A DNA stretch of 64,000 nt, taken from contig NZ_NGJN01000003.1 of NCBI RefSeq assembly GCF_002266855.1, positions 248,001 through 312,000 of the forward strand. Direction: 5' to 3'. Positions 34,770 through 63,945 of the stretch are shown piece by piece. The notes under the pieces are model-generated. The model was not told the origin of the DNA and did no database searches. It saw only the letters and a program-made list of their open reading frames with translations. Position numbers and translations under genes: made by a program. This DNA is from Winogradskyella aurantia. GTDB taxonomy: Bacteria > Bacteroidota > Bacteroidia > Flavobacteriales > Flavobacteriaceae. Every line of letters begins with the position of its first letter. Position 1 is the first letter of the stretch.

Positions 34770-34890
34770 GGATTGATTTTTAAGTTTCTTAATGTTATTG
34801 TAGCTTGTTGATAGTGTTGTTATGTTATCTAGTCATTGAGAATAGAGAGACTAGAGAAGAGAAAAGAGAACCATCAGCAACCATTCAATA

Positions 34891-35632
34891 CATCTCGATA
34901 CACTTGCTCATGCTTCGCAAGCACTCGATGTGACAAAATGAAGTACTGCTGTCAGTTCGAATGGAATGGCGCAAGCCATTTTGTATCGAGAACTGCTTAG
35001 GATAAACCTACTCGTATTACAACTCAATACTAGTTTTGTTCGCTCGCGCCGTACAAAAATCACTCGATGTGACAAAACTCAAAGCATGTAATAGTGGGCA
35101 CGAGTTCCAAAAAAGAAGATTGCTGTCAGTTCGAGTGGAATGGCGCAAGCCATTTTGTATCGAGAACTGCTTAGGACAAACCTACTCGTATTACATCTCG
35201 ATACAATTTTGCTCGTCTACTCGCAAAATTAGCCGATGTGACAAAACGTAAATCATGTACTAAATTGATTGAACTGTAAAAAAGAAGATTGATGTCAGTT
35301 CGAGTGATTCCCATACCTATCGGAATTGTATCTAGAACTCATAAAGATTAATCAAAATTTTCAAACCAAGTGTCAATTGTTATTAATACCCATTTCACCG
35401 AATAAAAAGAAAAGAGAAATGAGAAAAGAGAACATCTAGCAACCATTCAATACATCTCGATACACTTGCTCATGCTTCGCAAGCACTCGATGTGACAAAA
35501 TGAAGTACCGCTGTCAGTTCGAGTGGAATGGCGAAAGCCATTTTGTATCGAGGACTGCTTAGGATAAACCTACTCGTATTACATCTCGATACAATTTTGC
35601 TCGCCTACTCGCAAAATCACTCGATGTGACAA
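34891..35632. repeat. REP/BIME-like palindromic repeat array 1
   Basis: Nine modules alternate in orientation between rpe and the CBS gene. Type B (CATCTCGATACA..stem..CACTCGATGTGACA) starts at 34891, 35020, 35194, 35453 and 35582; type A (TGTCAGTTCGAGTG..stem..TTGTATCGAGAAC) at about 34951, 35124, 35293 and 35512. A and the reverse complement of B share ends; the stem cores differ (for example AATGGC/GCCATT, GATTTTGC/GCAAAAT, GCTTGCG/CGCAAGC). A block of about 190 bases is repeated 562 bases apart. The whole 34770-35686 gap otherwise has no gene. Confidence 0.9.
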
Positions 35633-42007: not shown

Positions 42008-42050
42008 GAGTAGTGAGTAGTGAGTAGTGAGTAGTGAGTAATGAGTAGTG
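42008..42050. repeat. 7-bp tandem repeat upstream of the wcaF-like gene
   Basis: About six copies of GAGTAGT (one altered to GAGTAAT) between the acetyltransferase start (41895, reverse) and the repeat array. Its unit is not a multiple of three and no gene reads through it convincingly. Confidence 0.85.
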
Positions 42051-42096: not shown

Positions 42097-43131
42097 CATA
42101 TCAATATACTTGCTCATATTTCGCAAGCACTCGATGTGACAAAATGAAGTATTGATGTCAGTTCGAGTGGTTTTTTAAAGCACAGCTTTGAAAAATTGTA
42201 GCGAAAACTCCTTCTGAAAAATCTCCTTGTATTACATCTCAATATAGTTGCTGATACTTCATGAGCACTCGATGTGACAAAATGAAGTATTGATGTCTGT
42301 TCGAGTGGTTTTTTAAAGCACAGCTTTGAAAAATTATATCGAGAACTTTTGATAGCGTATAGCTTTAGATGCATCTCGATACAATTTTGCTCGCATACTC
42401 GCAAAATCACTCGATGTGACAAAACATAAATCATGTAATAAATTGATTGAACTGTAAAAAAGAAGATTGATGTCAGTTCGAGTGGAATGGCCTAAGCCAT
42501 TTTGTATCGAGAACTTATGATAGCGTATAGCTTTAAATGCATCTCGATACAATTTTGCTCGCATACTCGCAAAATCACTCGATGTGACAAAACGTAAAGC
42601 ATGTAAAAGAGAACGTGACTTGTAACAAAGAAGATCAATGTCAGTTCGAGTGGAATGGCGCAAGCCATTTTGTATCGAGAACTTTTGATAGCGTATAGCT
42701 TTAAACGCATCTCGATACAATTTTGCTCGCAAACTCGCAAAATCACTCGATGTGACAAAACGTAAAGCATGTAAAAGAGAAAACGAGTTGTGACAAAATG
42801 AAGTATTGATGTCTGTTCGAGTGGTTTTTTAAAGCACAGCTTTGAAAAATTGTATCGAGAACTTTTGATAGCGTATAGGTTTAGATGCATCTCGATACAA
42901 TTTTGCTCGCCTACTTGCAAAATCACTCGGTGTGACAAAATGAAGTACCGCTGTCAGTTCGAGTAGAATGGCCTAAACCATTTTGTATCGAGAACTTATG
43001 ATAGCGTATAGCTTTAAATGCATCTCGATACAATTTTGCTCGCCTACTCGCAAAATCACTCGATGTGACAAAATGAAGTATTGATGTCAGTTTGAGTGAT
43101 TCTGATAAACATCGGAATTGTATCGAGAACC
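42097..43131. repeat. REP/BIME-like palindromic repeat array 2, left part
   Basis: Fourteen strictly alternating modules. Type B starts at 42097, 42235, 42372, 42540, 42708, 42888 and 43021; type A follows each. Spacing of successive B modules is 133-180 bases (168 twice), and linkers are themselves repeated (for example GATAGCGTATAGCTTTAAA between A and the next B). Stem cores alternate between AATGGC/GCCATT, TTTTAAAGC/GCTTTGAAAA and TTTTGC/GCAAAA. Outer ends TGTCA and TGACA make each A+B pair a larger inverted repeat of about 119 bases. The long ORFs seen across it are by-products of the repetition. Confidence 0.92.
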
Positions 43132-43176
43132 TTTACAGCGTTACAGTTCAAATTTTTAGCTACCTTTTAAGCACCA

Positions 43177-43470
43177 ATGAAACTATATTATGTCTACATA
43201 CTGGAATGCGGCGATAAATCGCTTTACACGGGAATAACAAATAACCTTGACAGAAGACTTTTGGAACACCAAAAAGGTCAGGATAACTCGTGTTATACCT
43301 ATTCAAGAAGACCTGTCAAACTTGTTTTTCATGCAGAGTTTACAGATGTAAATATGGCCATTAGTTCCGAAAAACAAATTAAACGTTGGTCCAGGACGAA
43401 AAAGATTGCGCTCATTAATAATGAAATTGATAAGCTTCCGAATTTGGCTAAAAAGAAGTTTAATAACTAA
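43177..43470 (+). CDS. GIY-YIG nuclease family protein
   Basis: 97-residue single-domain GIY-YIG endonuclease of the UPF0213/YhbQ-like type. The GIY and YIG half motifs are YVYILECGDKSLYTGIT (residues 4-20), followed by NNLDRRLLEHQKG with the catalytic Arg26 and His31, and SSEKQIKRWSRTKK (about 68-81) with the metal-binding Glu70. It is intact, the only gene inside the array, and on the strand opposite to the polysaccharide genes. It begins 46 bases after an A module and ends 40 before a B module. A TACCTTTT sequence at 43161-43168 is a weak promoter candidate. Role in the repeats is inference. Confidence 0.9.
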   Translation: MKLYYVYILECGDKSLYTGITNNLDRRLLEHQKGQDNSCYTYSRRPVKLVFHAEFTDVNMAISSEKQIKRWSRTKKIALINNEIDKLPNLAKKKFNN

Positions 43471-43509
43471 ATAAGTTGGTTTTAAGCCTATTGATAAAGC
43501 TTATGACTT

Positions 43510-44241
43510 CATCTCGATACACGCACTCGATGTGGCAAAACAATGGGTCATTGTCAGTTCGAGTGGAATGGCGCAAGCCATTTTGTATCGAGAACTTATG
43601 ATAGCGAATGGCTTTAAACGCATCTCGATACAATGTTGCTCGCATACTCGCAAAATCACTCGATGTGACAAAACGTAAATCATGTGAAAGAGAACACGAG
43701 TTGTGACAAAATAAAGTATTGATGTCAGTTCGAGTGGAATGGCGCAAGCCATTTTGTATCGAGAACTTATGATAGCGAATGGCTTTAAACGCATCTCGAT
43801 ACAATGTTGCTCGCATACTCGCAAAATCACTCGATGTGACAAAATGAAGTACTGCTGTCAGTTCGAGTGGAATGGCGCAGGCCATTTTGTATCGAGAACT
43901 GCTTATTATAAATCACCTCGTATGACATCTCGATACTATTTTTGTTCGCTCACGCTGCCAAAAATCACTCGATGTGACAAGACGTAAAGCATGTCATAGG
44001 AGGTGAGGATTGTAACAAAGAATAAGGATGTCAGTTGGAGTGGTTTTTTAAAACATAGCTTTGAAAAATTGTATCGAGAACGCGTCACCACTTCATCGCA
44101 TCACTGCATCACCGTCTCACCGCATCGCCACTTCACCACTTCACTGAATCACCGAATAAAAAATCACAAGCAACAAATTAATACATCTTAATACATCTCG
44201 ATACACTTGCTCATACTTCGCAATCACTCGATGTGATAAAA
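43510..44241. repeat. REP/BIME-like palindromic repeat array 2, right part
   Basis: Type B modules start at 43510 (short, almost no stem), 43621, 43792, 43926 and 44194; type A at about 43553, 43723, 43857 and 44031, with a decayed A at about 44252. The order and linkers are the same as in the left part, so the GIY-YIG gene interrupts one array. Between 44090 and 44155 is a short CACTTCATCGCATCACTGC-like simple repeat. No other gene is present up to 44310. Confidence 0.9.
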
Positions 44242-63729: not shown

Positions 63730-63945
63730 GGTTCTCGATACAAAATAGCTCAAAGCCATTTCACTCTAACTGAAAGCAAAACTCAGATTTGTCACATCGA
63801 TTGCTTGCGAGGAATGCGCAAGTGTATTAAGATTTGTTGATATGTAGAATTTGCACTAGTGAGTACTGTCTTCTTGGTCGTTATTATTTTTTTTGGTTGT
63901 CGATACAAAATGGCTCAAAACCATTTGACTCGGTCTGGCAACTGG
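63730..63945. repeat. Degenerate REP/BIME-like modules in opposite stem orientation
   Basis: Three decayed modules: 63730-63776 (GTTCTCGATACAAAA.. with the AATGGC-type stem, reverse of A), 63797-63840 (TTGTCACATCGATTGCTTGCG..GCAAGTGTATTAAGAT, reverse of the B type with GCTTGCG stem), and 63897-63947 (GTCGATACAAAATGGC..GCCA-like, reverse of A). They are less conserved than the two arrays. Confidence 0.7.

Follow-up and report, generated by a model that had tools for sequence, protein, structure and literature searches.

A small GIY-YIG nuclease gene between outward-tagged palindromic modules as a probable selfish unit in Winogradskyella aurantia and its relatives

We analysed 64,000 nucleotides of the flavobacterium Winogradskyella aurantia (contig NZ_NGJN01000003.1, positions 248,001 to 312,000; the window), which contain an array of short palindromic modules with a gene for a 97-amino-acid-residue GIY-YIG nuclease inside it. 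An earlier note, made from the sequence alone, had proposed this gene as the partner of the modules. As an association the link was borne out: close relatives of the nuclease lie beside such modules in every genome of the genus that was found to have one, and palindrome type follows nuclease clade on a protein tree. The association is real and clade-specific. It is probable, in our judgement, that the palindromic modules and the small GIY-YIG nuclease belong together as a single selfish unit in which the nuclease acts on tagged hairpins. A role of the nuclease in processing the repeats, cleavage and movement included, is what we infer from sequence comparison.

The main array lies at 42097..44238 and was delimited by pattern scans. 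About 23 modules alternating over 2.1 kb had been noted, and 23 were counted between 42.1 and 44.24 kb. Modules on the forward strand (A) and the reverse strand (B) alternate without exception, the step that spans the gene included. The A module reads TGTCAGTTCGAGTG-hairpin-TTGTATCGAGAAC and the B module, on the other strand, TGTCACATCGAGTG-hairpin-TGTATCGAGATG. The outer stem has 4 bp (GTTC/GAAC in A, CATC/GATG in B) and the inner hairpin is variable. Both have the TGTC tag and a GAG...CGA core, so A and B amount to one kind of module in two versions on opposite strands. The head was TGTC or one base off in 21 of the 22 window heads listed, and is [CT]GTC in relatives. The strict module pattern, TCGAGTG-N10-40-TATCGAGA, gave 19 matches in the window (15 in 42.30-44.23 kb and 4 in 34.89-35.62 kb) versus 0 in 100 shuffles, and it finds none elsewhere in the 3.2-Mb genome. 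Tails with at most 2 mismatches numbered 22 in 42198-44196, to which one decayed module at about 42097 with an intact head was added; the total of 23 omits two weak tail matches, at 43193 within the gene and at 44186 adjoining a perfect one.

The nuclease gene (43177..43470, forward strand) has an A module on its left and a B module on its right, each with the tag pointing outward. The left end of this cassette is a degenerate A module at 43085..43130 on the forward strand, with its TGTC tag outward, and the right end is a degenerate B module at 43510..43537 on the reverse strand, with its tag (TGTGGCA on the forward strand) likewise outward; as degenerate copies, neither fits the strict pattern. 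Gene-less units with the same layout, that is an A module, a short spacer and a B module with the tags outward, are found at 42294..42421, 42471..42589, 42639..42757 and, downstream of the gene, 43552..43670. The gene had been called the only intact one in the array, and it is the sole gene that we recognised there; the other open reading frames of at least 60 codons, whose families were not searched, run through repeats. When DNA folding was compared with shuffles, two A-type window modules folded better (z -2.6 and -2.3) and one B module not clearly better (z -1.5). A tandem G.A pair model was considered for the GAG...CGA core; the predictor favours a shifted TCGA/TCGA pairing. Rfam gave no match between 34.7 and 44.4 kb at E<=0.5.

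The protein matches PF01541 with 62 bits (cut-off 22.6) and keeps the residues that are invariant in 42 relatives, among them V6, Y7, Y17, G19, R27 and E65. The domain match and the conserved Y...Y-x-G, R and E place it in this family, as a bare GIY-YIG domain. Its fold was predicted with a confidence score (pLDDT) of 90.5 and matches UPF0213 proteins best and Slx1 more weakly (TM-score 0.54-0.65 by query length, E 0.006-0.05; the PDB titles name a branched DNA substrate). The nearest solved structures by both sequence and fold are the UPF0213 proteins 1zg2 and 1ywl, which we take to be COG2827. GIY-YIG homing endonucleases and UPF0213/COG2827 proteins have the same catalytic domain as the window protein. 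Unlike the genes of the homing endonucleases, window-type genes were not seen inside an intron or intein and are flanked by palindromic modules. Slx1, a branched-DNA nuclease, is eukaryotic and paired with Slx4, whereas the window protein is the bare domain. Flavobacteriaceae and other Bacteroidota supply most of the closest relatives in named genomes (the best 80 of 547 confirmed ones). Purifying selection acts on the proteins: the median ratio of nonsynonymous to synonymous substitution rates is 0.16 (78 pairs of the class with GAGT-type modules). NCBIfam and the defence library PADLOC gave no match, and the phage library PHROG gave one weak match (E=0.073). Viral contigs were considered as a source and rejected: 17 relatives found there have 37-48% identity, and inverted flanks were seen in 0/13 of those tested.

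Sixty genomes of the genus, the window's own included, were compared. A match was assigned to the window's clade if its identity was at least 60% and it extended to residue 95 or farther; those with 60-63% identity that ended at residue 91 have another C-terminal type and were left out. The clade occurs in 16 genomes, the window's own included. One gene was examined in each, and a strict module lies within 1 kb of it in all 16, versus at most 0.31 expected. With the window's genome excluded, the same holds in 15/15 congeners versus at most 0.30 expected. The enrichment of this clade near modules, as the earlier note had proposed it, is therefore present. At least one module was found in 55/60 genomes, and the median number of modules was 29.5 in the 16 clade genomes versus 8 in the other 44 (p=0.0009, uncorrected for kinship).

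The flanks, up to 5 kb, of the 80 relatives from named genomes were scanned with a structural module rule: a TGTC head, one base, a four-base stem, GA...CGA and the complementary stem. This TGTC-head rule gave about 5 modules per kb over the 250 bp nearest to the gene, upstream and downstream, versus 0.03-0.09 per kb at 2-5 kb, and a scrambled-head control gave a single match over the 80 loci together. By the same rule, outward-facing modules lay within 250 bp upstream in 62/80 loci and downstream in 54/80. For the counts that follow, the head could be CGTC or TGTC. In the intergenic DNA of these loci, the density of module heads was 7.8 per kb in the nearest 300 bp and fell to 3.8 per kb at 300-1000 bp and to 0.69 per kb farther out. 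The stems covary: 185 of the 265 sites within 400 bp of the 80 genes pair perfectly, against a shuffled mean of 24 (near-copies count repeatedly), and 19 different four-base stems occur.

Named loci, congeneric loci and viral contigs were pooled into a set of 198 distinct genes, with full flanks for 182 small and 12 long ones. Small GIY-YIG genes had a module within 300 bp in 119/182 and outward modules on both sides in 81/182; for long GIY-YIG proteins the figures were 2/12 with any module and 0/12 with modules on both sides. Because the structural rule had been written after the loci were seen, we also made a blind test, which asks whether the 200 bp on either side of a gene match as inverted repeats and ignores the palindrome sequence. 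In a phylum hold-out the score exceeded the 99th percentile of random places for 14/28 close and 16/39 distant genes, and for 0/13 relatives on viral contigs. Scores of at least 16 were reached by 60/150 GIY-YIG genes of the named and hold-out loci versus 6/423 other genes of the same loci. Counts of untagged 7-bp palindromes beside genes were discarded as uninformative, these being present at all 13 viral controls too.

Mapped onto a tree of 177 small GIY-YIG proteins, the type of palindrome beside the gene changes 18 times versus a shuffled mean of 93.8; labels of the smaller classes came from patterns written after the flanks had been viewed, near-copies aid clustering and many forks are weak. 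GAGT-type modules go with proteins that end LAKKKF-like, whereas GAGC types accompany, for the most part, proteins with CRNATH-like or related ends. The genes associated with tRNAs, and those beside each of three more palindrome types, mostly form clades of their own. These observations bear on a rival explanation, in which the palindromes arise otherwise, by replication slippage, recombination or some other enzyme, and a homing-type GIY-YIG gene inserts at hairpins and is carried along as a passenger. We regard it as unlikely. It would suit the abundance of modules in places without a cognate gene, and also the other GIY-YIG clades that lie at tRNA genes and at a gene start, likewise structured or conserved targets, or at untagged palindromes. 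It leaves unexplained why palindrome type tracks nuclease clade across species, why left and right modules can differ in a fixed manner (CTTC left and GTTC right in 14 gene units), and why the gene is enclosed by a tail-to-tail module pair 68 times versus 11 times by a head-to-head pair (pairs of the same orientation were counted without regard to the gene).

Each genome of the genus has between 2 and 26 PF01541 matches, a figure that takes in ordinary members of UvrC size, and some small genes are amplified in tandem. Six equally scoring GIY-YIG genes follow one another in one genome (G034, locus L201) with an exact period of 427 bp, and five in another (G011, locus L202) with an exact period of 381 bp, neither of the window's clade; at a locus that is of this clade (L164), two gene copies lie 441 bp apart beside gene-less units. 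Direct repeats scoring at least 20 bracket 37/44 genes of the GAGT class versus 5/418 other genes. Both the exact periods and the bracketing repeats are what would be expected if the arrays were ordinary tandem duplications by recombination between repeats, with the gene co-duplicated and no enzyme needed. Recombination alone leaves the dispersal to unrelated sites, the outward ends and the match of clade and palindrome unexplained, and we hold this explanation to be quite improbable.

Comparison of sites in different genomes gave occupied and gene-free states. Between an aldehyde dehydrogenase gene and a short-chain dehydrogenase/reductase (SDR) gene, 30 loci (the 30 best of 57 matches) were compared. 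Five of them (L235, L240, L242, L243 and L260) have a left module, the gene and a right module. An extra right module precedes the cassette in L239 and L263, and the gene of L239 has an in-frame stop. L250 has a lone right module, the residue expected from recombination between two direct copies. Only a short gap is present in L252, L257 and L264, and the remaining 19 loci are occupied by palindrome pairs of another kind, by other genes or by other sequence. That a single site can be filled, hold a solo module or be free of the gene would fit a homing-like copying into an empty allele. At a second site, beside another gene of the window's clade, the nuclease is upstream in 2/27 orthologues and lone modules occur in 2 more; in G040 the nuclease is on the other side of that gene. 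Two loci of the first site, L241 and L262, hold a different insert between CCTGC-type palindromes, in L262 with a 98-codon open frame, perhaps a second kind of cargo.

Several observations weigh against a single unit of nuclease and modules. As defined above, the window's clade is absent from 44/60 genomes, 28/60 have no match at E<=1e-20, and several of these genomes carry dozens of modules. In G026, which has no clade nuclease, nine near-identical modules, one of them differing by a single base, occur at three places. No nuclease relic was found in 30 module loci of G026, G055 and G033, four of G026's nine included. The modules of G055 and G033 look scattered and varied, as expected of old copies. 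In such genomes another GIY-YIG paralogue may serve the modules, the gene may have disappeared, or nuclease and modules may be tied less closely than we propose. At three G026 loci (L375, L381 and L384), which hold no nuclease relic, several palindrome families seem to have been multiplied jointly as composite blocks. Among the pooled small genes, the strict module is within 300 bp in only the 119 counted above, and 13 of the 63 without one are on viral contigs. Both end modules of the window's own cassette are degenerate, which suggests that this cassette is old, and three small modules fold no better than shuffles (z -0.4 to 0.1). Several other GIY-YIG clades adjoin palindromes mostly without the tag; of the genes tested in the CCTGC, TTCCC and tRNA classes, 0/25 have it on both sides. 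The origin of gene-less spacers as internally deleted cassettes is suggestive only: their similarity to the cassette is 0.67 at the same locus versus 0.46 between loci, values confounded by loose module calling and local duplication.

Palindromes of this general kind are known as repetitive extragenic palindromic sequences (REPs), which form bacterial interspersed mosaic elements (BIMEs). In enterobacteria and Pseudomonas, REPs are moved in trans by REP-associated tyrosine transposases (RAYTs) of the Y1 type, and a RAYT might move the modules here too. Y1_Tnp matches do exist in 26/60 genus genomes at E<=0.001, 23 of them above the family cut-off. In the window's genome, however, no Y1/RAYT transposase gene was found, and in the 10/60 genomes with strong Y1 matches (E<1e-20) module counts are no higher (p=0.45). 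On these two grounds RAYT was ruled out as the partner, and we give the RAYT explanation hardly any weight; in addition, a 2013 survey reports no transposase gene flanked by CGTC sequences (PMC3733652). The earlier note had named, as what would speak against the nuclease, many modules in genomes without the clade gene together with a RAYT that explains them. The first was found, for example in G026, G055 and G033; a RAYT that accounts for them was not.

That survey, by Di Nocera, De Gregorio and Rocco, recognises two sorts of REP: those with a GTAG tag, which go with RAYTs, and those with a CGTC tag, which "apparently lack a dedicated transposase" (PMC3733652). CGTC-tagged REPs occur there in five phyla including Bacteroidetes, with the tag varying to TGTC or CCTC. 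Like the window modules they have an unpaired tag at one end, and their palindromes are often paired in opposite orientation, with clusters in Neisseria (PMC3733652). The stem described has 8-9 bp and begins AT, the loop has 4-5 nt and the tail is CCA-like (PMC3733652). In the window modules, by contrast, the outer stem is only 4 bp long, the core is GAG...CGA and the inner hairpin is long, and no CCA-like tail was recognised. By their tag the window modules belong with the CGTC-tagged superfamily; by stem, loop and tail they do not. This likeness had escaped the earlier note. For CGTC REPs its authors found no dedicated transposase (PMC3733652), whereas here a GIY-YIG gene, not a known transposase, stands between modules.

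Tagged stems of at least 7 bp also flank some other GIY-YIG genes, among them a paralogue in the window's own genome (L001), and occur at the proteobacterial loci. Canonical tagged palindromes face outward on both sides of 6/48 non-viral GIY-YIG genes without strict modules, the same paralogue included. Plasmid records were searched with a GIY-YIG protein of another clade (33 records, 17 taken) and with the window's (45 records, 7 taken). Most near-identical strains were skipped, and 19 loci were treated as members (Planktothrix, Spirosoma and the rest proteobacterial) and five distant GIY-YIG genes as controls. Among taxa that the survey names (PMC3733652), S. meliloti, A. lipoferum, N. aromaticivorans and Neisseria were sampled. 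Outward CGTC-type modules lay within 250 bp on both sides in 11/19 loci, all 11 proteobacterial, versus 0/5 controls; with one locus kept per genus, 8/14 were still flanked on both sides. CGTC-type module density over the 19 loci was 4.32 per kb near the gene versus 0.32 per kb far from it, and three scrambled or altered tags gave 0, 1 and 0 near matches. In Azospirillum lipoferum the gene and its CGTC modules lie between sufB and sufC. S. meliloti and Sinorhizobium C101 have modules on one side only; the loci of Planktothrix, Photobacterium, R. rhododendri, Spirosoma, Methylobacterium and Sphingomonas are without a strict pair. The Planktothrix gene (L392), on a plasmid and with no CGTC module by the strict rule, has a type IIL restriction enzyme gene on one side and drmA, the DISARM helicase gene, on the other. 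The Spirosoma gene (L408) lies between two glycoside hydrolase genes, and TGTC palindromes that the strict rule misses can be seen there by eye.

Because 11/19 of these genes lie between outward CGTC-type palindromes versus 0/5 controls, we regard the GIY-YIG nuclease as the best candidate for the missing partner of CGTC-tagged REPs, a proposal made from sequence. No title linking GIY-YIG proteins to REPs was found among the publications listed, preprints and most subscription journals aside. A wider claim is more tentative, and we put it at somewhat under an even chance: small GIY-YIG nucleases might be the dedicated mobilising enzymes of the CGTC-tagged REP superfamily in Bacteroidota and Proteobacteria, perhaps in other phyla too. 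They would then stand for a class of mobile element whose movement relies on GIY-YIG cutting at tagged hairpins, some clades having also moved onto untagged palindromes and further structured targets, such as tRNA genes and the beginning of a gene for an E2 dehydrogenase. Our estimate of this wider claim was lowered slightly because several clades adjoin palindromes mostly without the tag.

The other targets were seen as follows. A separate GIY-YIG group lies at tRNA genes (L003, L145, L147, L148, L165, L166 and L201). The clearest example is L003, at about 393.2 kb on contig C1 of the window's own genome: an incomplete tRNA copy, into which a palindrome has been inserted, is followed by the nuclease gene and then by an intact tRNA-Met. 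In L115, L179 and L204, GIY-YIG genes and palindromes precede a gene that is presumably 2-oxoacid dehydrogenase E2-like. The opening stretch of that gene recurs on either side of the nuclease gene as direct repeats of 83-115 bp, one copy being left intact. Two relatives, L059 and L102, are in contigs binned as Candidatus Peregrinibacteria, through either transfer or a binning error; L059 clusters with the window's clade, and a GAGT-type module flanks it on one side.

In the unit that we favour, a left module, the nuclease gene and a right module would be carried together with [C/T]GTC tags outward. The arrays are made up of gene-less units that end alike, with a short spacer between the left and the right module, and the nuclease could serve these in trans. 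The nuclease would recognise the tagged hairpin, either as an extruded cruciform or as a single strand at the replication fork, and cut beside the tag. Break repair or replication would then copy modules into or next to other hairpins and so yield alternating arrays, the gene-less units being moved in trans. The GIY-YIG family would be to CGTC-tagged REPs what RAYTs are to GTAG-tagged ones. REPs and BIMEs with their RAYT genes (REPtrons) offer the closest parallel, one drawn in part from general knowledge on the RAYT side: a small gene between inverted palindromes, gene-less copies and alternating arrays are common to both, and in both the enzyme type matches the palindrome type. The REPtron enzyme is an HUH/Y1 transposase and its tag is GTAG, whereas here the enzyme is GIY-YIG, no Y1 gene was found in the genome and the tag is TGTC/CGTC. 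Without a Y1 gene or a GTAG tag the window's system falls outside REP/RAYT proper; the gene between palindromes, the gene-less copies and the match of types make it alike in working. By its way of life it is of the REP-plus-enzyme kind, but with an unrelated enzyme.

The window has two further places with modules, both absent from the earlier account; the modules are common to all three places. The second array (34891..35631) consists of nine alternating modules without a GIY-YIG gene inside, and its neighbours are, by their translations, presumably a ribulose-phosphate epimerase-like and a CBS-domain-like gene. The third group (63731..63940, the end being approximate) is decayed and has about three modules. 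Both came from the same pattern scans. Short simple repeats (GTGAGTA-like, TCACCGCA-like and AGAGAAAAGAGAA-like) border the arrays at 42008-42050, 44085-44160, 34840-34870 and 35400-35435.

The 2013 survey left the spread of CGTC REPs open, because no transposase gene had been found with them (PMC3733652). Our analysis names a testable candidate, a nuclease of about 100 residues, with cognate hairpins at hand for several clades. If the proposal is true, HUH transposases and GIY-YIG nucleases, two unrelated chemistries, would have reached the same life on short palindromes independently. It could then account for part of the intergenic repeats in Bacteroidota and alphaproteobacteria, and would offer a small hairpin-directed nuclease family for study. 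Should cleavage and movement be demonstrated, the unit would represent a new class of mobile element.

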